From Eggerthella sp. (GTDB lineage: Bacteria; Actinomycetota; Coriobacteriia; Coriobacteriales; Eggerthellaceae): 64,000 bases of DNA. Location: assembly GCA_030540085.1 (NCBI GenBank), contig JAUNWY010000002.1, positions 245,072 through 309,071 on the forward strand, written 5' to 3'. The translations under genes and the position numbers were made by a program. The notes below the pieces were generated by a model. That model searched no databases. It saw only the letters and a program-made list of their open reading frames with translations, and was not told where the DNA came from. Below, in pieces: positions 6,360 to 26,542 of the stretch (positions are counted from its first letter, which is position 1; every line of letters starts with the position of its first letter).

Positions 6360-7652
6360 ATGTACAGTCCGTTTCGCAATGAACAGGGCCGACCTAAGAG
6401 CCTTGACGAGGTAGCCTACGCCGACCTCGCGCAATTGAAGGATCTCGAAGAGGGTTTTGCGCTTGAATTCAAGCGCACGTGGAACGAAAACGTCCGCGCG
6501 AAAATTCCCAAGATCATCGCCTCGTTTGCCAATTCCCATGGCGGCTGGCTCGTCATCGGCATCGCCGACGACGACAAAACGGTATGCCCCGTGCCGAAAC
6601 AGTCGGCAGATTTCTCTCAGATATTCGGTGAGCTGTGCCGCCACCACGTATCCCCTACTCCGCGCTTTGACACACGCTTTATCGCCGATCCCGTAAACCC
6701 CAAACAAGGCGCTGTAGTGGTTCAGGTCCACGAAGGCGATTTCCCGCCCTATGTTGCCGACGGCATCGTCGAGATACGCGAAGGGTCAACCTCGGGCCCA
6801 GCACTCGGCTCGGCATTGGTGGAGCTCTACAGCAAGGCAACTAAGCGAAAGCAGGAAATCCGCGAGTTTTGCCAGCGCACCGTATGGTATCCGGCGGAAA
6901 CCCCGTGCACCTCGCAGAGCAACGCCACCGCTGAGGCTCCCTTGCCCCTGTTTAGCCTGTACTTGTATCGGATGGGCCGTCGCGCCGCCGACACACCCTC
7001 TAGAGCGGCTCAGGAAAGCCATGTGATGGCAATGCGCTCCGCCTTTGAGCAGCAAGGAATGGGTTGCCACGTTCAACACGCACACGATTCGCTGATATTC
7101 CGAACATCCAAAGGCATCCCGGGAAGCTCAGTCCATTCCGCCATCGAGCTGTTCCCCGATGAATCGTTGAAGCTCACGGTACCTGGCGTGATGCTCGATC
7201 CCCGCATGCAAGAAGAGGCTCTTCGTCAGATTTCGACGCTTGGCATCGAAGTGCCCGGCAACGCGCTGTTTATCGGCGCCACCGAAACGCTGCGCCGCGT
7301 TACCCGCATGGCATCGCTGCTTGACCGCTACGTACGACTACGAGCCATAAGCTGGAGCAATTACGCCGTAGCTTATGAGCTGGAGAATATGGCTGGCGTG
7401 ATGCTCTGGTCGGAAACGGAAACCTATGCGCACTACATCAGCAAGCACGGCATGCTGTTCTGCGGGACAACCGATTGCCGAAGCCGCATTCGCTATCTTG
7501 ACGACGGCATCCACGGCTCGTTCCGCGCCCGTCAATTCGCTGGCAGTCATTTCTTTGAAGCGTGCGGGCTGCCACTAGGCTCACCAAGCGAAGAGGACAA
7601 CGAATTGGTAGACGCCCTGCTTCGCGGAGAAAAGGCGAGCATGGGGCAATAA
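6360..7652 (+). CDS. AlbA_2 (Schlafen-type) domain protein
   Basis: This 430-residue protein has an N-terminal AlbA_2-like region. Residues 29-73 contain EGFALEFKR, a helix and the segment SFANSHGGWLVIGIADD, the usual signature of this nucleic-acid/ATP-binding fold. The remainder (about 150-430) resembles no family I can name and lacks the winged-helix/HATPase layout of the well-known AlbA_2 regulators. A GGGGG site precedes the ATG. The gene is about 50 bases downstream of the phosphatase pair and converges with the ion transporter. A role as DNA/RNA-binding regulator or defence factor is possible but not shown. Confidence 0.75.
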   Translation: MYSPFRNEQGRPKSLDEVAYADLAQLKDLEEGFALEFKRTWNENVRAKIPKIIASFANSHGGWLVIGIADDDKTVCPVPKQSADFSQIFGELCRHHVSPTPRFDTRFIADPVNPKQGAVVVQVHEGDFPPYVADGIVEIREGSTSGPALGSALVELYSKATKRKQEIREFCQRTVWYPAETPCTSQSNATAEAPLPLFSLYLYRMGRRAADTPSRAAQESHVMAMRSAFEQQGMGCHVQHAHDSLIFRTSKGIPGSSVHSAIELFPDESLKLTVPGVMLDPRMQEEALRQISTLGIEVPGNALFIGATETLRRVTRMASLLDRYVRLRAISWSNYAVAYELENMAGVMLWSETETYAHYISKHGMLFCGTTDCRSRIRYLDDGIHGSFRARQFAGSHFFEACGLPLGSPSEEDNELVDALLRGEKASMGQ

Positions 7653-7696
7653 CGCCTTCGAAAACGCCAGATCTGCAAAAACAGCCGCTTTCAGGC

Positions 7697-8836
7697 TCAA
7701 GCCCACCCGAATACCGCATTTGCCGCACATAGGACAGCAAGGAACACCACATTCCAGGCCGTGAACACCGCCAAGTAATGGCGTTTGCCCACCAAACCCG
7801 AAGCGGTGGCAATCTTGAGCGAGATAAGGCTTGCCATAGAAGCAATGGGCGTCCCCAGCCCGCCAAGGTTTGTTCCCACTATAAGGGCAGTCCAATCGTT
7901 GGTGAAGCCAGACAGCAGAACAGCAGCCGGAACATTGCTTATCACCTGGCTTGACCCCACTGCCGCATAAAACGGCGCGATGCCCACCAGAGCTGAAAGC
8001 GCCTCATGCACCGCAGGAACGCGAGCCATATTGCCCACGAATACAAACAGAGCTACAAACGTGAGCAAAAGACCATAATCAACCTTAGTCAACGTGCGTC
8101 TATCAAGAAAGAACAGCACAAGGGCAACGAGAACGGCAACAGGATAAGCGTCAATAAGCCCCACTACCGCCATAATGCTCAAGGCGAACAAAAGCAGGTA
8201 TGAGACGAACATGAGCCTTTGGCGCCCTGTAGGCCTTGCAAGGATCCCGTGAGATGCGCAATCGGAGTGCCCCTCCGCATTACCCCGGAACACAATCAGC
8301 AACGCAACAACCAGCATTGCCGCAGACAGGGCAACGATAGGTGCCATGATCAACACAAACTGAGGAAAGTCCATGCCCGATGCGCGATAGAGAAAGAGGT
8401 TCTGCGGATTCCCAACAGGCAGCAGCATACTGCCCAAATTTGCCGACACCGTCATGAGCACCACTACGGAAGCCGCGTACCGACCCTCCCCTGCCTCGGA
8501 GAGCACGACAAGGGCAAGAGGAACAAAGGTGATGAGCGCTACATCATTGGTTATCGCCATGGAACTGACGAAGGTTAGCGCAACCAGTGCGAACGCCAGG
8601 GCGCGCATAGAAGAGGCGCGCGACACGGCCCAACTGCCCAGCAGACGCATCACACCCATGAAACGCAACCCTGTTACAACCGCCATCAGACAAAACAGCA
8701 GAGCCAAAGTGCGCCAATCGACATATGAGGCGTAGCCTTCGTCAAAGGGCACCAGCGCACATGACGCCGCAGCCGCCAAAACCGCAACGACCAGCACCGC
8801 TTCCTTCGAAACGAAAGCCCTGATCTTTTCCAGCAT
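7697..8836 (-). CDS. Ion transporter (IT superfamily, SLC13/ArsB-NhaD-like)
   Basis: This 379-residue integral membrane protein has about ten hydrophobic segments. Two hallmark segments of the IT superfamily are visible: TNDVALITFVP, and PVGNPQNLFLY in a re-entrant loop. These occur in ArsB, NhaD and SLC13 dicarboxylate/anion carriers. It is somewhat shorter than typical 420-450-residue members, so the substrate is left open: anion, dicarboxylate, arsenite or Na+/H+. A GGAGC site sits before ATG 8836, and the start is 12 bases after the rlmKL stop, so the two may be co-transcribed. Confidence 0.85.
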   Translation of the reverse strand: MLEKIRAFVSKEAVLVVAVLAAAASCALVPFDEGYASYVDWRTLALLFCLMAVVTGLRFMGVMRLLGSWAVSRASSMRALAFALVALTFVSSMAITNDVALITFVPLALVVLSEAGEGRYAASVVVLMTVSANLGSMLLPVGNPQNLFLYRASGMDFPQFVLIMAPIVALSAAMLVVALLIVFRGNAEGHSDCASHGILARPTGRQRLMFVSYLLLFALSIMAVVGLIDAYPVAVLVALVLFFLDRRTLTKVDYGLLLTFVALFVFVGNMARVPAVHEALSALVGIAPFYAAVGSSQVISNVPAAVLLSGFTNDWTALIVGTNLGGLGTPIASMASLISLKIATASGLVGKRHYLAVFTAWNVVFLAVLCAANAVFGWA

Positions 8837-15622: not shown

Positions 15623-16396
15623 CTAGATCACATACTCGACATTCCAATTCGGCTTCATACCGAACACATCGAACACATGGTCGCGCACCGCAAGAAAATC
15701 ATCTGCTGTTCGCAAGCGATCAGGACCCAGCTCGACTTTGATTACTTCCTTCACCCTGCCAGGATTGGGCGTCAGCACCACGATTCGATCGGCCAAGGCA
15801 ACCGCTTCCTCGATATCATGGGTAACAAACACCACCGTTACCCCTTCTTCCTCGGCAATTCGGTGGATATCGTCTTGCATCTTCAAACGGGTAATGGCAT
15901 CGAGCGCCGCAAAAGGCTCGTCCATGAACAGAACATCGGGCTGCACCGCCAGCCCACGTGCAATGGACACGCGCTGCTGCATGCCACCAGAAAGCTGCGC
16001 AGGGCGCACATGCTCAAAGCCTGAAAGCCCCACCAAGTCGATATACTTTGCAGCAGTGGCACGCGCTTGCTCTTTGGGCATTTTCTTTGCCAGAAGCCCC
16101 AGCATCACATTCTTTTCCACGGTCTGCCAAGGCAAAAGTCCGTAATGCTGGAAGATAGTAACGCGATTGGGCACCGGGCCCTTAACCCTTTCTCCCCCTA
16201 TAAGCACCTGACCCTCATCGGGATCCTCAAAACCGGCAAGCGTATTCAGCAACGTTGTTTTTCCGCAGCCCGAAGGGCCCAGAAGGCAGATGAACTCGCC
16301 GCGCTCGATTTCCAGGGATACATGACTCAACGCATGGAACGGCTCGCCTTCGCGTTGATACACCTTCGATACATCGTTGATCTCGATATACGCCAT
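15623..16396 (-). CDS. ABC transporter ATP-binding protein (SsuB/TauB/NrtD type)
   Basis: This 257-residue ATPase powers the importer encoded upstream. Walker A is GPSGCGKT (40-47), the signature LSGGMQQR (135-142) and Walker B VLFMDE (155-160), followed by the H-loop VTHD. It belongs to the nitrate/sulfonate/taurine/thiamine-precursor group. Its ATG overlaps the permease stop by one base (TAATG), showing tight coupling, and a terminator follows. Confidence 0.95.
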   Translation of the reverse strand: MAYIEINDVSKVYQREGEPFHALSHVSLEIERGEFICLLGPSGCGKTTLLNTLAGFEDPDEGQVLIGGERVKGPVPNRVTIFQHYGLLPWQTVEKNVMLGLLAKKMPKEQARATAAKYIDLVGLSGFEHVRPAQLSGGMQQRVSIARGLAVQPDVLFMDEPFAALDAITRLKMQDDIHRIAEEEGVTVVFVTHDIEEAVALADRIVVLTPNPGRVKEVIKVELGPDRLRTADDFLAVRDHVFDVFGMKPNWNVEYVI

Positions 16397-17178: not shown

Positions 17179-18135
17179 TTAGTTTTTCGCCACAAACTCG
17201 TCGTACGTGGGCGGGTTGTCGTTCAGGCCATACTCGATAACTTCCTGACGAAGCCTTCCGTATGCTTCTTCGGTCACGCTCAAATCGTTGAAGGAAATCC
17301 ATTGAAGCGACTGCTGGCTGGTTGCTTCGTCCTGACCCAGGTTGTTCACCGCTATCTGCACTGCTTCGTCTTTAGTCAGCGAATTGCCTGCAGAAAGGTA
17401 GGCCTGCTTGAAGGTTTTCAGTGCTTCCTGCTTCTCGGCAGTTGCCTGTGTGTTAAACACGATGCCGCAGCAAATGGAGTTCTCCCACAGCTCATCGGAA
17501 GTAGCCAACACGTGACCTACGCCGGTCTCTACCGCTTTGGCGCCGAAGGGTTCGGCTACGCAATAGCCGTCAATCTGCCCCGATTTCAAACCAGCAGGCA
17601 TTTCGGCGGGAGCCATCTCGACCAACGTCACATCTTTTTCGCTCATGCCATACTTGTTAAGTAGCTGTTGAACCAAGATGTTGTGCGAAGACTGCTCGTT
17701 TGGAATGGCAATGGTTTTACCCTTCAGCTGCGCAGGCGAAGTAATGTCGTTACCCGCGATGATCACGTTGCCGTCGCGGTGACCCAAAAGGGATAGCTCC
17801 AACGGAATCCCTTGGCTCTTCGCCTCCATAGCCATTTCGATAAGAACCGAAGCACCATCGACACGTCCCGAGTCAAGCGCGTCCATAAGCTCCGCCCATC
17901 CACCGTATTTGACCAGTTCAACATGGACGTTACTATTTTGCTGCCCAAGCTGCTCAGCAGCTTTGAACAACGGTACCGCATGGGTAATGGGCAAATAGGC
18001 AATGGTTATGGTGGTCTGTTCCTCAGAAGCGCCGATGCCCGATTCGTCAACCTTGTAATACACGGCCGTCGCAACAAGCGCCAACGTGGCCAAGAGTGCC
18101 ACCAACGCACGCAACGTACCCTTTGCGAGTTTCAT
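17179..18135 (-). CDS. NMT1/SsuA-type ABC substrate-binding protein
   Basis: This 318-residue periplasmic-type binding protein has an N-terminal hydrophobic signal or anchor (residues 9-27) and no lipobox cysteine, so it may stay tethered by that segment. The rest matches the NMT1/THI5-like fold: TITIAYLPITHAVPLF at the start, GKTIAIPNEQSSHN in the hinge region and IDGYCVAEPFGAKA in the ligand lobe. Its start codon directly follows the cooS stop (TAAATG), so it is translated as part of the cooS operon. The ligand is unknown; adjacency to cooS suggests it supplies that enzyme's substrate or cofactor. Confidence 0.93.
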   Translation of the reverse strand: MKLAKGTLRALVALLATLALVATAVYYKVDESGIGASEEQTTITIAYLPITHAVPLFKAAEQLGQQNSNVHVELVKYGGWAELMDALDSGRVDGASVLIEMAMEAKSQGIPLELSLLGHRDGNVIIAGNDITSPAQLKGKTIAIPNEQSSHNILVQQLLNKYGMSEKDVTLVEMAPAEMPAGLKSGQIDGYCVAEPFGAKAVETGVGHVLATSDELWENSICCGIVFNTQATAEKQEALKTFKQAYLSAGNSLTKDEAVQIAVNNLGQDEATSQQSLQWISFNDLSVTEEAYGRLRQEVIEYGLNDNPPTYDEFVAKN

Positions 18136-20202
18136 TTACCCGTTCACCTTCCATCCCAATGCGCGTCTACGCGCATCCATGTCTTCAACGATTCGCTTCG
18201 CCAATGCCTGGTGGTCAACATCAACCACCATCTCGGAACCCAACAGGGGCTTGGTGCCATGCTCCATAAACTCAGTTACCTTTTCCGAACCCTGCGTAGG
18301 TGCATATACGCTGTGATACGAATTCATGCCCAGCAGGCGAAATGCCAAGGCGGCACAAATACCTTTTTCGTTTGACCATTCGGGACTTGCGAACGCAAAG
18401 GGTAAATCTTTGATAGCGTGCCCCGATTCGGCAGCAACCCCACAGAACAGCGCCGAAGCGCGAGCATTATCCAGGCATTCGCCCATCTGCCACACGGGCG
18501 GCACATCGCCCAGAAAACCGCGCAGCCCCTCCCCTGCCTGGTCCAAAGCCTTTTTCGAGCAGTAACCCAGTTTCATCAGAGGGAACGAAGCGCAGCCGTT
18601 TGTCATAACCAACACATCGTGTTTGATGAGGTAATCGGCCACTTCGACAATGGCTTTTTCGTAGACAATGCGGGGATTGTTGCAACCCACCAAATTCACG
18701 ATGCCGCGGATACGCCCTTCGCGCAAAGCATCGGCGATTGAACCAAAGCCATACTGCTGCTGAGCAAATTCAGCAGAAAAGCCCACTTCGACCTCGGCTT
18801 CATACTGGGGAATAACCACGGGGACCCCACGCCGATTGGTATGGCTCTCAATACCGCGCTCGACGATTTTCACAGCAAGCTCGTGAATCTCATCCAAGTT
18901 GGCATGATGATGGTCAAAGTCGTAATGCTCGGCGCCTGGCAACCGCGCAGAGTCGCTGGTCGTCACCACTGTGGTTTTGAAACACCGTGCAACATCCATA
19001 ATCGAGGGGAACACATCCTGCACATCGGCAACCCACAAGTCGAGTGCGCCAGTACCCAGCACCAATTCGGCACCAACCGCATTGGAGAGGGGAATAACCC
19101 CACCGTAGCGGTACATCGCCGAAAGTCCTGAACAGCAAATGCCATAGAACTGGATGCCTTCGGCTCCTGCAGCACGTGCCTTTTCCTGATATTCGGTAGA
19201 ACGCCCTACACGCACAATCTCGCTCACCATAAGCGGTGAATGGCCATGCACCGCAATGTTCACCCATCCCTTTTTCAACGCACCAAGGTTCATGGTGGTT
19301 TTGCGACGTTCCGGCAGGCCGAACAAGCTGTCCATCGCGATAGACGAGCCCAAACAGCTCGTCCAAGCAAAGGCAACGCCCGTGCGCAGGAACTGCTGCA
19401 TAACATGACGCCAGTCGCCATCGGTCCCGACGCTGGTCTTGTGCAAGCTTTCGAATACCTCGTGGTACACGCTGATGGGCAAGATACCCAGTTTTTCCCA
19501 GGTATCTAAACGCTCCTGCGGCGCAAAGGCGTGGACGGTTTTATGGTCGTCGGGCACCGTACGAGAAAGATCCTCCAGCAAAGTATCAGCCACCTCTACC
19601 GCAAGCTGATTGAGGGGTTTGCCGGAGCCATCAATCCCGAACTTTTGACATACGGTACGAATCTTTGCCTCACCTTCAATGGGAAGATTCAGCACGCCTT
19701 CGCCAGCGCGTTTCAGCGCCAACATGCTCTCGCGGCCGCGGGCGCCATGCGCTGCAGCACCTGAGGCAAGAGAGCGCAGCATGTTGCGAGCAACGATCAA
19801 ATCAGCATCAGCCCCGCATACACCACGCGGTGCCTTCTTGGTTATCTTGCACGGGCCCATAAAGCAATTCTTACAGCAGATGCCCGCAATGCCGAACGAA
19901 CACTGCGGCTGCTGGGCATCGAAACGGTCGAACACCGTATCGATGCCCAGCTCCTGCATACGCAAAAGCATGTCGCGCACAGCTGGATCGGGCGTCTGCT
20001 CGATAACCTGCTGTTTATTCGCAAACGTCTTCTTGTATTCACGCACAGCCTGCGTGTAGTCGTGAAAATCCGCACTATCGTGGCTGTGATGGCCATGCTC
20101 ATGTTCGTGCTTGCTGTGCGCTATGGCGCGGGCAAGCTCTTTTTCGTTTATCCCATCCGCATTTCGGCTTGCTGGCGCGGACGTAAGGTTGGCGTTGCTC
20201 AT
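18136..20202 (-). CDS. cooS: CooS-family protein (Ni-CO dehydrogenase homologue with altered C-cluster)
   Basis: This 688-residue protein follows the anaerobic CODH catalytic-subunit fold. Cys101 and Cys109 match the D-cluster, and Cys110, 113, 118 and 129 the B-cluster. Active-site positions retained are the VHGH histidine region (318-321), GICC (354-357), Cys507, Cys537, Cys576 and Lys613. However, the residue matching the C-cluster cysteine of canonical CODHs (DYQC in C. hydrogenoformans CODH-II, recalled) is Asp396 in DVQD. Only the first His (152) of the histidine proton channel is kept. Residues 29-47 are His-rich (HEHEHGHHSHDS). These changes recall the hybrid-cluster enzyme CooS-V, which lacks CO activity, so the CODH label should be treated with caution. 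No cooC, cooF or ACS gene is nearby. An AAAGGA site precedes ATG 20202. Confidence 0.9.
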   Translation of the reverse strand: MSNANLTSAPASRNADGINEKELARAIAHSKHEHEHGHHSHDSADFHDYTQAVREYKKTFANKQQVIEQTPDPAVRDMLLRMQELGIDTVFDRFDAQQPQCSFGIAGICCKNCFMGPCKITKKAPRGVCGADADLIVARNMLRSLASGAAAHGARGRESMLALKRAGEGVLNLPIEGEAKIRTVCQKFGIDGSGKPLNQLAVEVADTLLEDLSRTVPDDHKTVHAFAPQERLDTWEKLGILPISVYHEVFESLHKTSVGTDGDWRHVMQQFLRTGVAFAWTSCLGSSIAMDSLFGLPERRKTTMNLGALKKGWVNIAVHGHSPLMVSEIVRVGRSTEYQEKARAAGAEGIQFYGICCSGLSAMYRYGGVIPLSNAVGAELVLGTGALDLWVADVQDVFPSIMDVARCFKTTVVTTSDSARLPGAEHYDFDHHHANLDEIHELAVKIVERGIESHTNRRGVPVVIPQYEAEVEVGFSAEFAQQQYGFGSIADALREGRIRGIVNLVGCNNPRIVYEKAIVEVADYLIKHDVLVMTNGCASFPLMKLGYCSKKALDQAGEGLRGFLGDVPPVWQMGECLDNARASALFCGVAAESGHAIKDLPFAFASPEWSNEKGICAALAFRLLGMNSYHSVYAPTQGSEKVTEFMEHGTKPLLGSEMVVDVDHQALAKRIVEDMDARRRALGWKVNG

Positions 20203-20593: not shown

Positions 20594-20620
20594 CAAAAAA
20601 GCCCCGTCGAAACGGGGCTT
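20594..20620 (-). terminator. Terminator of metK
   Basis: A 9-bp stem (AAGCCCCGT, loop CGAA on the plus strand) is followed on the minus strand by six T, 32 bases past the metK stop. Confidence 0.88.
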
Positions 20621-22047: not shown

Positions 22048-23490
22048 CTATTTATCTTGCGTCATTGGGTGACGGGTACGACCCAAACGCTCGAATTTTG
22101 TCATATCGGTTGCCGCCATTCCCTGGGTAACATCGTGGCGCTTCTCGAACAAAGGATCGTTCGGGTCGTTCCAAATGCGTTCGGAAACCGGCTTCCATGC
22201 TGCGGCAGCGTCCTTGGTTTTCGCACACAGCTCTTCAGCGGTTTCCTGCTCCTGCAGATCGGAAGAATGGGCGCCTGCGCGCTCAACCATTTCGGTCAGC
22301 TTGCCACTGTTTTCCAGGATAGGACACGGGCGGAGCAGATTGTCGCTGAAAGGCTGCTCGCGGTAGTACTCCATGAAAATGGGCGATTGCAACGCTTCAA
22401 GCAGGGAAACCTCACGAATATTAGCGTTGGAGTAATGAGCGAAGACGCACGGGTCGACGTCGCCCGCCGCATTGATGTGAAGGTAACGGCGTCCGCCGGC
22501 AATGCAGCCGCCCACGAATTCGCCGTCATTCTGGAAATCAAGCGTAAACAGGGGTTTCTTCTGGCGCATTTCACGGACGAAGCGATACAGATGCTCACGC
22601 TGCTCGGGGCTGGCCATAAGATCGTGCGTAGACCCAGCACCTACCGGCATGAACGAGAAAATCCAGGCAAAGAGCGCGCCCTGGTCGATGAGGTAATCGA
22701 AGTATTCCTCCGAGGCAATCGATTCAGCATTCTGCGAGGTGTAGCAGCATGAAACGCCGAAGGGCAAACCGTTTCGCTTCAGCAGCTGCATGGCCTTTTG
22801 CACCTTGGCATACGTTCCCACACCACGGCGACTATCGGTTGCTTCCTCGAAGCCTTCAGCGCTGATGGCAGGAACGAAGTTCTTCACACGAATCATTTCC
22901 TGGCAGAACGCCTCATCGATCAGCGTGCCATTGGTAAACGAAAGGAACACGCAATCGGGGTGCATCTCGCACAGCTTGATGAGGTCTTTCTTGCGCACCA
23001 GAGGTTCGCCACCCGTGTAGATATATACATGCGTGCCTAGCTCTTTACCCTGCTTGATGATGGAATCAATCTCTTCCAAGCTCAGATTCAGTTTGTTACC
23101 GTATTCCGCCGCCCAGCAGCCTGTGCAGTGAAGATTGCAAGCACTAGTAGGGTCAAGAAGGATAGCCCAGGGGATATTGCATTCGTATTTATCGCGGTTG
23201 GCTTCCTGCACCGGCCATGCCATCAGGTTGCCATCGATGATAAGCGTTTTCACGAGATCGTCGCGCACTTCAGGGTTGGTGTCATTCATGATATGCATGA
23301 TCAGACGATACCAGTTGCTTTGGTCGTCGATGGCACCGCGAAACGCTGCTCGCTGAGATGCAAACAAATCCTTTGGCGCCACTTTATCCAGCAAATCCAT
23401 AATTTTTACGATGTTATGTTCAGGATCTGCCAGAAAGTAGTCCACGGCTTTTTCGAAAGCCGCCTTCTTGATGTGATCACTTGCCTTCAT
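22048..23490 (-). CDS. Radical SAM protein with SPASM-like C-terminus
   Basis: This 480-residue enzyme carries the radical-SAM cluster motif CNLHCTGC (Cys118, 122, 125), followed by the SAM-binding YTGGEP segment. The C-terminal part has further cysteines, in GGCIAGGRR, DPCVFAHY and LLRPCPI, that could bind an auxiliary Fe-S cluster as in SPASM proteins. The substrate is unknown and no peptide precursor is seen beside it. The N-terminal 100 residues are helical and unassigned. It is divergent from a TetR regulator 145 bases away, which probably controls it. Confidence 0.9.
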   Translation of the reverse strand: MKASDHIKKAAFEKAVDYFLADPEHNIVKIMDLLDKVAPKDLFASQRAAFRGAIDDQSNWYRLIMHIMNDTNPEVRDDLVKTLIIDGNLMAWPVQEANRDKYECNIPWAILLDPTSACNLHCTGCWAAEYGNKLNLSLEEIDSIIKQGKELGTHVYIYTGGEPLVRKKDLIKLCEMHPDCVFLSFTNGTLIDEAFCQEMIRVKNFVPAISAEGFEEATDSRRGVGTYAKVQKAMQLLKRNGLPFGVSCCYTSQNAESIASEEYFDYLIDQGALFAWIFSFMPVGAGSTHDLMASPEQREHLYRFVREMRQKKPLFTLDFQNDGEFVGGCIAGGRRYLHINAAGDVDPCVFAHYSNANIREVSLLEALQSPIFMEYYREQPFSDNLLRPCPILENSGKLTEMVERAGAHSSDLQEQETAEELCAKTKDAAAAWKPVSERIWNDPNDPLFEKRHDVTQGMAATDMTKFERLGRTRHPMTQDK

Positions 23491-23515
23491 CGTTGCCCCT
23501 CTTCTCTATATTAAG

Positions 23516-23607
23516 TATCATACGTTGATTTTTCCACATTTGTAGATTATATTAGCTTCAAAGAGGGGCTCAATGCCCAAGAGGTAAAGACCTGTATCAT
23601 AAGATAC
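23516..23607. promoter_or_regulatory. Candidate TetR operators between radical-SAM and tetR genes
   Basis: The motif GTATCATA occurs twice in the divergent intergenic region, near 23516 and at 23594. The second lies inside the perfect inverted repeat GTATC-ATAA-GATAC (23594-23607). Such duplicated palindromic half-sites are typical of TetR-family binding. Confidence 0.45.
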
Positions 23608-23635
23608 GTATCGGCAATGATTGGGGATTATTTTT

Positions 23636-24244
23636 ATGGCTACGATCGAAGCTAAAAAGACTGATAGACGCGTAATTCGCACCCGAAGCGCCATACGTAA
23701 AGCCTTTACCGACCTACTTGCCGAAACGGCCTATAGCAAGATCACCATCACCGCACTTGCCAAGCGCGCCGATGTCGACCGAAAGACGTTCTACACCCAC
23801 TATTCATCGGTGGACAATCTGCTCGAAGACGTGATTCGCATCCAAACCGAAAAAAGCTTGGAGGGGATCGATTTTCGTGACTTCTTTGCCGATCCTCCTG
23901 CCTGCACCAAACGCTTCCTGACCGCCATCGAAGCCTCACTGCCCTTCACCCGCGAACAGCTGCGCGCAGTTGCCGAGCATGTGCCCCTCGACGAGTACCT
24001 CACCTATTGGACGGCTGCCGCAAAAGAGCACATCCACAACGAGGCGGGATTGCTTCCCGCCGTGGCTGAACGCAACCTCGACATCATGCTTGAATTCTAT
24101 CTAGGCGGCATTCTTAACGCCTACCTATATTGGCTCCGCAACTGCCACGACATGCCTCTTGATGAATTACTGGCGCTGATATCGGACAACGTGGCGTATG
24201 GCCTTCCCGGAACCCTTGCCCGCCGAGCCAAAGTTCAGCACTAA
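23636..24244 (+). CDS. TetR/AcrR family transcriptional regulator
   Basis: This 202-residue protein has an N-terminal helix-turn-helix around residues 15-65 (ITALAKRADVDRKTFYTHY) and a helical ligand-binding C-terminal domain of unknown specificity. The ATG at 23636 has a GGGGA site; an in-frame TTG at 23621 adds only five residues. The gene is divergent from the radical-SAM gene and is followed by a strong terminator, so it likely regulates that neighbour and itself. Confidence 0.92.
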   Translation: MATIEAKKTDRRVIRTRSAIRKAFTDLLAETAYSKITITALAKRADVDRKTFYTHYSSVDNLLEDVIRIQTEKSLEGIDFRDFFADPPACTKRFLTAIEASLPFTREQLRAVAEHVPLDEYLTYWTAAAKEHIHNEAGLLPAVAERNLDIMLEFYLGGILNAYLYWLRNCHDMPLDELLALISDNVAYGLPGTLARRAKVQH

Positions 24245-24399: not shown

Positions 24400-25767
24400 A
24401 TGAAAAGCAACGCTGAGCTCACCGAAGAATATTTTGCCTGCGCTGAAGAGCTCGACGGCGATATCGCCGGCCGCCGAAGCGCGTACGAATACATGAAAAA
24501 CTCCACCGCCATCGTGCACGAAAAGGTGGTTGCCTCTTCATTCATTCCCCGACTCTACAACGACGAGAGCTGGGAAACGTTACGCTCCATAGCCGAGACA
24601 ACGCATCGAATCTTGTGCAAAGTCATCGAACATTACTGCGAAACGCCCGAATATCGCGACGTGTTCACCTTCGATGAGCGCCTGCGCGAACTGGTGCTTT
24701 TGCCTCGCGGCTACGCCGACCCGCTACCCTTCGCCCGCATCGACGTTTTCCTGAACGAAGACGATCTCAGCTGCGGCTTCTGCGAGTTCAACGGCGACGG
24801 TTCTGCAGGCATGAATGAGAACCGAGAGATCACCAACAGCATCGACCAAACAGAAACATTCAAGCTTTTCTCCCAGAAGCACCCCCTTGAAGCCTGCGAG
24901 CTCTTCGATTCATGGGTGCGAGAGTTCATTCGCATCTTCGAGCATTCAAAGCACTTTGTTCCTGGTGCTCGATTCGCCATCTGCGATTACCTTGAGTGCG
25001 GCGTAGTCGACGAGTTCAAGGTGTTCTCCTCTTTCTTTGCACGCTACGGCTACGAATGCGTTGTATGCGACGTGCGCGATCTGAAGTTCGACGGCGGCGC
25101 CCTGTACGATGCCGACGGGCTGCCCGTTCATGCCATTTGGCGCCGCAGCGTAACAAACGACGTGCTTGATCACTGGGACGAGTCGCAAGACCTTATCGAG
25201 GCGGTACGTCACGAAGCCGTAGCCTTGATTGGCAGCTTTGCCGGTCATCTGGTTCACGACAAGCAGATTTTCGAAGTACTGCGCCACCCCAAAACCAAGG
25301 CAATCCTAACTCCCGAGGAAAACGAATTCGTAGAGCGCCATGTTCCCCGCACCCTTTTCCTCGACGAAAAGGAAATCGATCTCAACGAGGTACGCACCAA
25401 CAAGAACGCCTGGATCATCAAGCCCACAGACAATTACGGCGCCAAAGATGTATATGCCGGCGTTTCCTCCACCCAGGAAGAATGGGAGGATCTTATTGCC
25501 CGATTCGCAAACGGGGCATCAGGCGCGCCTTTTATTGTGCAGACGTACCTCACCCCGTACAAAACCCACACCTTGCCTCCTGATGAAGATATCGAGAACC
25601 TGACCGATGATGAAGTTGATCGAACAGGGGCCTTATACAACAACCTCAGCGGCCTCTACCTGTACAACGGGCATTTTCAGGGCATTTTCTCCCGCCTAGG
25701 ACCCTTCCCCACCATCAGCAAGGACCTGAAGGGCATCACCGCCGCCACCATCCGCGTTCGAGGGTAG
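24400..25767 (+). CDS. ATP-grasp-like protein (circularly permuted / glutathionylspermidine-synthase type)
   Basis: This 455-residue cytosolic protein resembles the permuted ATP-grasp/GSP-synthase group, which ligates carboxylates to amines. Supporting segments are LSCGFCEFNGDGSAGMNENR at about residues 126-145 and AWIIKPTDNYGAKDVYAG at about 337-354. The latter matches the nucleotide-binding K-P-x(4)-G region. Substrate specificity cannot be read from the sequence. It is followed after 4 bases by the TIGR01906-type membrane protein, so the two form an operon. Confidence 0.7.
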   Translation: MKSNAELTEEYFACAEELDGDIAGRRSAYEYMKNSTAIVHEKVVASSFIPRLYNDESWETLRSIAETTHRILCKVIEHYCETPEYRDVFTFDERLRELVLLPRGYADPLPFARIDVFLNEDDLSCGFCEFNGDGSAGMNENREITNSIDQTETFKLFSQKHPLEACELFDSWVREFIRIFEHSKHFVPGARFAICDYLECGVVDEFKVFSSFFARYGYECVVCDVRDLKFDGGALYDADGLPVHAIWRRSVTNDVLDHWDESQDLIEAVRHEAVALIGSFAGHLVHDKQIFEVLRHPKTKAILTPEENEFVERHVPRTLFLDEKEIDLNEVRTNKNAWIIKPTDNYGAKDVYAGVSSTQEEWEDLIARFANGASGAPFIVQTYLTPYKTHTLPPDEDIENLTDDEVDRTGALYNNLSGLYLYNGHFQGIFSRLGPFPTISKDLKGITAATIRVRG

Positions 25768-25771
25768 CGCC

Positions 25772-26542
25772 GTGAGTATCATGCGTCGCGCGCTTGCCCC
25801 TCTTCTTACGCTCGCAACCAGCATAGCCCTGGCCTACACCCTGTTCGGATTGGGATTCGTTGCCTGCACCACCCCGCAGGCAACCGCCGCCATTGGCGGC
25901 ACCTTCTCTGGCTGGGAGAATTCGGTGTTCCCCGAAGAAGACATGGCGGCCATCGCTGAGGCAACGCGCGCTTTCTCTATCGAAGGAGCACCAATCGACG
26001 AACTCTCCGATGCGATCCGTTCAGCGCTCGAAGACTCAAACCCTCAACTTGCCGAGGCGTTTGCCGCAAGCGGACTCGACATCGCCACAAACCAGGACAA
26101 AGCCGCTTCGGTGGCGGGCGCGCTTTCCGATCGCTACACCCTGCCGCAAAACGCGCTTTCCCACCTGCAGGACTGCACGCCCATTTTCACCACGGGCCGC
26201 ATTTCGGTGGGAGTTGTGGGGGGATTCGCCCTCGTAGGACTTATAGCGCTGGGTTTTCTAGCAGGACGCAAGGCAGCAGGTCGTGCAATGCAGCTCGGCG
26301 CAGTCCTAGTCGCCGTAACGCTGTTGGCTCTAGCCGCATGGGCGATCACCGATTTCGATGGCCTCTTCACTTGGATGCATCAGATGCTGTTTTCGCAGGG
26401 AAACTGGACGTTTAGCGCGAGCTCGCTTTTGATTCAGCTGTTCCCTGAGGCCTTCTGGGCAGCCATGGCGGCACTTTGGGTTATCTGCAGCCTTATCTGT
26501 GCCGTTCTATGCGGGCTTCTGGGGAAGGTTATCGCGCACTAG
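25772..26542 (+). CDS. TIGR01906/DUF1461 family integral membrane protein
   Basis: This 256-residue protein has one N-terminal and three C-terminal membrane segments around an extracytoplasmic domain of about 120 residues. The family hallmark is clear near the end: HQMLFSQGNWTF, then LIQLFPEAFW. Function of the family is unknown. The GTG at 25772, 4 bases after the ATP-grasp stop, is the likely start, with an ATG nine bases further as alternative. It converges with the yqeY gene. Confidence 0.88.
   Translation: MSIMRRALAPLLTLATSIALAYTLFGLGFVACTTPQATAAIGGTFSGWENSVFPEEDMAAIAEATRAFSIEGAPIDELSDAIRSALEDSNPQLAEAFAASGLDIATNQDKAASVAGALSDRYTLPQNALSHLQDCTPIFTTGRISVGVVGGFALVGLIALGFLAGRKAAGRAMQLGAVLVAVTLLALAAWAITDFDGLFTWMHQMLFSQGNWTFSASSLLIQLFPEAFWAAMAALWVICSLICAVLCGLLGKVIAH

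Follow-up and report, generated by a model that had tools for sequence, protein, structure and literature searches.

A CODH-family enzyme of structural group B-1 in an Eggerthella genome, its transporter cassette and a possible link of clade B to sulfur acquisition

Nickel-containing carbon monoxide dehydrogenases (Ni-CODHs) have been sorted into 24 structural groups by Inoue et al. 2019 (PMC6344411). Group B-1 of this scheme is characterized by Asp or Glu at the second C-cluster cysteine (Cys2), a type II D-cluster, a His/Lys pair and an N-terminal His-rich region, and NitT/TauT ABC transporters have been linked with clade B Ni-CODHs in general, while CooS-V was placed in group D-1 with Glu at the first C-cluster cysteine (Cys1) (PMC6344411). 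More recently, Bohm and Land 2026 (PMC13056359) reported that 64% of clade B CODHs are accompanied by ABC transporter genes and that maturases are almost absent; these authors considered clade B, which has no characterised member, to be a group whose function is not deducible from the genomic environment, and raised a degenerated function as a possibility. A gut survey published in 2024, which retained only CODHs without motif substitutions, showed a cysteine synthase adjoining cooS in 11 of 12 Megasphaera genomes (PMC11338639). In addition, the CymR cysteine regulon of S. aureus includes an operon that is repressed by sulfide and encodes a transporter of the type found beside clade B genes (PMC5480029).

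In the present study, a stretch of 64,000 nucleotides from Eggerthella sp., referred to as the window, was found to carry a CODH-family gene followed downstream on the same strand by genes for a binding protein, a permease and an ATPase. The features of this four-gene cassette and its border are as follows.

18136..20202, minus strand: CODH-family enzyme, clade B (group B-1 type), 688 aa, identified from the open reading frame, profile match, alignment and tree
20080..20118, minus strand: N-terminal His-rich stretch, residues 29-41, with 7 His, the eighth being H47 (translation)
19015..19017, minus strand: codon GAT, encoding Asp396, the counterpart of the second C-cluster cysteine, Cys2 (alignment)
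17179..18135, minus strand: NitT/TauT-type substrate-binding protein, with H52, H119, E178, M179, C222 and C223
16396..17172, minus strand: ABC permease of the CODH cassette
15623..16396, minus strand: ABC ATPase of the CODH cassette
20599..20620, minus strand: terminator-like hairpin between metK and the cassette, a consensus match only (2 sites found, 0.8 expected)

The CODH reading frame scored 493.4 bits with TIGR01702, against a curated cut-off of 478. Residues 392-400 read ADVQDVFPS, and the solved CODHs shown in our alignment have Cys at the place of D396, as do all 27 loci of other CODHs. The first-pass annotation of this DNA had noted Asp at a C-cluster cysteine position with the remaining cluster cysteines kept, and both observations were borne out, since the alignment places no cysteine at D396 and the other C-, B- and D-cluster cysteines, together with H152 and K613, are kept in all 29 aligned Asp/Glu-form enzymes. 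A sequencing error at codon 19015-19017, which the annotation had allowed for, is excluded because the residue is conserved: Asp was present in 120/120 homologues listed, which are the 120 best of 4129, and, among 53 relatives obtained by a DNA scan, in 52, with L039 having Glu instead. Thus, the substitution at residue 396 is real; it is not new, having been described in 2019 as a group B-1 feature (PMC6344411). The canonical Ni-CODH C-cluster ligand set of His and five Cys is broken at D396. Cys1 (C357) is retained in place of the Glu of the HCP and CooS-V type, and N611 occurs in 29/29 Asp/Glu forms, so that Glu is likewise absent two residues before the catalytic Lys. The other features of group B-1 were also observed in the window enzyme, namely a type II D-cluster of the pattern Cys-(X)7-13-Cys-Cys (C101, C109 and C110), the acid-base residues H152 and K613, eight His before the core, and NitT/TauT ABC genes in the same directon. 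By these sequence features, the window gene belongs to clade B, structural group B-1. The annotation had further described the proton-channel histidines as mostly lost. The residues were read correctly, but they are weak evidence: R155 of the window enzyme is His in 13 of the 29 aligned Asp/Glu forms, and at channel position 158, His occurs in just 7 of the 27 other CODH loci, while the solved enzymes of D. vulgaris and Thermococcus have a different residue. The loss of channel histidines was therefore rejected as functional evidence, as other CODHs vary there too.

For comparison, 82 clade B loci were assembled, comprising 53 from a CODH-based DNA scan, 28 found via the binding protein, and the window. 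ABC genes were observed in 35 of the 53 scanned loci; in the Cys-form loci and 18 further loci found through the binding protein, they are present by construction. As controls, 27 loci of other CODHs were used; most of these are CooC-linked, and they do not represent all CODH clades. L144 was left out, as its piece has no CODH; L181, whose CODH fragment lacks position 396, was assigned to the ABC-linked Asp/Glu-form loci; and genes split over frames in L013 (CODH), L017 and L185 (binding protein, 7349-8337) were left split. A tree was built from 57 rows of our own loci. Of the 71 Asp/Glu forms, 29 were included, together with all 11 Cys forms; 13 of the 27 control loci and a further four CODHs made up the 17 other CODHs. 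The Asp/Glu form constituted one clade (support 100/100) and the Cys form a separate clade (100/99), and the two together were split from the 17 other CODHs (100/100). S539 and N611, the latter lying two positions ahead of the catalytic Lys, are common to both clade B forms and occur in 0/17 other CODHs. The His-rich tail was present in 63/69 Asp/Glu forms (two of the 71 loci lack the motif used for counting) versus 0/11 Cys forms and 0/27 other CODHs.

The neighbours of these genes were clustered with no preset families, using ORFs of 150 aa or more that lie within 10 kb. The commonest neighbours at the 82 clade B loci were the ATPase (65), the binding protein (64) and the permease (63); cysteine synthase came next with 19 loci and other Cys/Met PLP enzymes with 14, ahead of a further family with 7. 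At the 27 other CODH loci, a CooC-like protein was the commonest (21/27), and cysteine synthase and Cys/Met PLP enzymes were found at 0/27. A CooC-like ATPase was near one clade B locus, L143. Sulfur PLP genes were present at 11/11 Cys-form loci and 15/53 Asp/Glu-form loci with ABC genes, and at 0/18 Asp/Glu-form loci without ABC genes and 0/27 other CODH loci (15/53 versus 0/27, Fisher p 0.0016; neither this value nor the counts are corrected for relatedness). The remaining 38 of the 53 ABC-linked Asp/Glu-form loci, the window and 37 of the other 52, have no sulfur PLP gene nearby.

In the transporter-linked Cys form, cysK is found upstream in the same orientation, at a distance of 10-193 bp, at 11/11 loci; the one cysK tested scored 480 bits (cut-off 351). 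At L140, a SAM riboswitch (RF00162, 87.5 bits) directly precedes two cystathionine-lyase-type genes, which are followed in the same orientation by cysK, CODH, binding protein, permease and ATPase; in that organism, the CODH-transporter pair is thereby linked to the control of sulfur amino acids. This was the only riboswitch among the 11 Cys-form loci scanned; none was found in 21 Asp/Glu-form loci scanned or in the window. Sulfur genes also lie close by and on the same strand at the Asp-form loci L007, L017, L018, L048, L173, L175 and L176. Two lyase-type genes are upstream at L017, L018 and L048, the nearer at about 200 bp (L018 and L048 being from Caldicoprobacter species); a cystathionine-lyase-type and a PatB-type gene are present at L173 and L175, with TIGR04350 over cut-off in L173; and an O-acetylhomoserine sulfhydrylase gene (TIGR01326 over cut-off) lies 145 bp upstream at L007. 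At L176, cysK, OAHS-like, MoeB/ThiF-like, sulfite-reductase-like and siroheme genes are all on the same strand. NifD/NifK-like genes accompany cysK at L178 and L180, where the NifH-type protein of L180 is over cut-off and its NifD- and NifK-like proteins are far below theirs. Close homologues of the nitrogenase-like MarHDK sit with sulfur genes in other clusters, according to a 2023 preprint (PMC10418091).

H52, H119, E178, M179, C222 and C223 are conserved in 34/34 aligned CODH-linked binding proteins; the binding proteins of the Cys-form loci retain the Cys-Cys pair but often differ in the P-x-E-M motif, and H52 is Asp in three of these loci (L142 and its like). The nearest solved structure is 3un6 from S. 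aureus, titled 'with Zinc bound', which has the motifs YLPITH, LGH, PAEMP and CC in common with the window-type protein and which may be the product of the S. aureus NWMN_0115-0119 operon. The next structure matches bind nitrate, bicarbonate, taurine or sulfonates. At the 18 loci without ABC genes, a SLAC1-family anion channel over the Pfam cut-off lies beside the CODH in seven (L038, L040, L042, L043, L046, L053 and L054), a SLAC1-like protein was detected by BLAST with no Pfam match in L045 and L050, and two Mitsuokella loci, one of them tested, have an MFS carrier of the lactate/oxalate type. Unrelated anion transporters thus occupy the same place, and a small anion is therefore favoured as the cargo; a nickel/peptide-type ABC set downstream at L046, with most parts below family cut-offs, counts against this, and L053 has the same neighbours.

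Several related arrangements were also observed. Frames of about 595 aa that are partly binding-protein-like and carry the Cys-Cys pair occur with no CODH nearby in L126 (589-2370) and L127 (1489-3279). A distant relative of the binding protein with this pair, also at a locus with no CODH, is near a frame judged by eye to be nitrogenase-like (L129 1-2421). A same-family transporter with neither the Cys-Cys pair nor a CODH (L145 4136-8886) lies near an acyl-CoA dehydrogenase N-terminal-domain protein and a PF14026 'nickel responsive' protein. In Bacteroidota-type loci such as L003 (4983-6061), the ATPase gene precedes those for a 170-aa protein with no Pfam match (family in 7 loci) and an FmdE-like protein (family in 6 loci).

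In the window, the cassette lies between priA and metK, and these two genes adjoin in the congeners L194 and L197. Among four genomes of the genus, a CODH match was obtained in the window's genome only, the other three being 81, 63 and 99% complete. Because priA and metK are adjacent in congeners without the cassette, the cassette appears to have been inserted between them, presumably acquired as a unit. For the same reason of host synteny, and because a terminator-like hairpin separates the two, metK was rejected as an operon partner. No cysK, other Cys/Met biosynthesis gene or SAM riboswitch was found beside the window cassette; the arrangement of a sulfur-assimilation operon, with sulfur genes or a riboswitch next to the cassette, is found in relatives. 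A single cysteine synthase was identified in the window's genome (80% complete), and no NIR_SIR match was obtained in this genome or its 99% complete congener; if the cassette feeds host sulfur, the product would therefore be sulfide rather than sulfite. Elsewhere around metK, a radical SAM/SPASM protein and a TetR-type regulator (22048-24244) lie between metK and an ATP-grasp-like gene; both are missing there in L194 and L197, and a related radical SAM gene adjoins metK in L196, from another genus. The ATP-grasp-like protein (PF14403 below cut-off) and the Lit-family protein after it (24400-26542) stay next to metK in congeners. In the same order, genome G038 has an Asp-form CODH (L111 1315-3354) besides Cys-type ones.

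Herein, we propose that the clade B enzyme of the window and its anion-family ABC transporter serve sulfur acquisition rather than CO metabolism, a reading to which we give close to an even chance. The observed facts are the residues, the presence of the four-gene cassette and its position between priA and metK, the Asp/Glu clade in the tree and the sulfur genes beside relatives. The sulfur role is put forward because many related genes adjoin cysteine-making genes, and as no sulfur gene lies beside the window cassette, we infer its role from these relatives. The transporter would import a small sulfur-containing anion. Electrons, probably from ferredoxin, would pass through the conserved D- and B-clusters to the C-site, where Asp396 is a predicted iron ligand and where the substrate would be cleaved reductively with release of sulfide, and the cysteine synthase of the host would then capture the sulfide. 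The His-rich N-terminus would help metal loading in place of a CooC-type maturase. The CODH of R. rubrum reduces COS to CO and sulfide. More tentatively, with the chances somewhat against it, the clade B 'CODHs' as a whole may be anaerobic sulfur-liberating reductases, in which a CODH fold supplies cysteine synthesis with sulfide stripped from an imported small sulfur anion (thiocarboxylate, thiosulfate or sulfonate type). The Asp/Glu form could then represent a maturase-free version with a built-in metal loader, carried as a self-contained cassette across anaerobes of several phyla and forming a counterpart of the nitrogenase-like sulfur-scavenging enzymes.

A different role for the same transporter follows from Inoue et al. 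2019 (PMC6344411), according to which the ABC proteins import Ni2+ and the His-rich tail hands it to the active site of an enzyme that is a Ni-CODH despite the Asp. The tail of 63/69 Asp/Glu forms, the conserved His and Cys-Cys residues of the binding proteins, the zinc held by 3un6, the nickel/peptide-type set at L046 and the PF14026 neighbour at L145 are all consistent with metal import. However, the Cys forms with the same transporter have cysK (11/11) and no such tail (0/11), anion channels replace the ABC genes at 7/18 loci, and, among 22 genomes with the Asp/Glu form, just 11 had HypA over its cut-off, although this last result decides nothing alone and nickel machinery was rejected as a test. 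We therefore regard nickel import as unlikely. It is less probable still that the protein functions as a CODH, oxidizing CO and thereby providing electrons with which another enzyme reduces a sulfur compound. H152, K613 and the B- and D-clusters are indeed kept, and sulfite-reductase-like genes occur in L137, L141 and L176 with a partial match in L185; but a sulfite-reductase-like gene occurs at just 4/82 loci, Cys2 is Asp, the window's genome lacks a NIR_SIR match, and other CO genes are unlinked in most genomes. ACS beta was found in 2 of the 22 genomes, and isolated cases were HypD/HypE following L043 and a partial ACS-like match preceding L037.

The first-pass annotation had suggested a non-CODH enzyme by analogy with CooS-V. 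This interpretation is partly supported by the present results, but the analogy with CooS-V and HCP was set aside, as it is poor at the ligand positions: CooS-V is altered at Cys1 and the window enzyme at Cys2. An enzyme of this kind, having an Fe-S-O cluster and using hydroxylamine or related nitrogen compounds as substrates, would agree with the replaced C-cluster cysteine and with the hydroxylamine reductase activity gained by the C295E variant of CODH-II (PMC6344411). Yet neither HCP-type Glu is present, no nitrogen-oxide genes are among the commonest neighbours of the 82 loci, and another prismane-family protein of any type already exists in 18 of the 22 genomes (the window's is among the four with none), and we hold this explanation to be very improbable. 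The degenerated clade B function raised in the 2026 survey (PMC13056359) and the His-rich tail would fit a non-catalytic metal store, sensor or chaperone, but all the cluster cysteines, like H152 and K613, are invariant among 29 distantly related Asp/Glu forms, which makes such a protein the least probable of the explanations weighed.

The sulfur link of clade B is the new part of the present study, and the gene itself is a member of a described group; no proposal of a sulfur role for clade B was found in the main-text passages searched, which included two CODH surveys and the gut survey of 2024. If the link is true, 'CO dehydrogenase' genes in many anaerobes are no evidence of CO metabolism, and the CODH/HCP superfamily gains a further job. 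The link also offers a substrate class, a SAM-riboswitch operon (L140) and a Cys/Asp enzyme pair for comparison.

Among known systems, group B-1 agrees with the window gene in every sequence feature tested, and the sulfur-gene company of the clade is unmentioned in the passages of PMC6344411 considered. The S. aureus TauABC-type operon (NWMN_0115-0119) resembles the cassette in its annotation as a sulfonate-type importer and its membership in the CymR regulon, and differs in that no CODH is among the genes listed for it (PMC5480029). The hybrid cluster proteins belong to the same superfamily (PF03063) as the window enzyme. CooS-V of C. hydrogenoformans (group D-1; PDB 7b7q) shares the CODH fold and a changed C-cluster ligand, whereas its Glu is at Cys1 rather than Asp at Cys2, its D-cluster is of type III, and the identity is 27%. 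Finally, the Cys form, assigned to group B-4 by features and not by the sequences of the original paper, stands beside the Asp/Glu form in the tree and has the same transporter type, N611 and S539, but it combines complete C-cluster cysteines and a tail-free N-terminus with cysK directly upstream.
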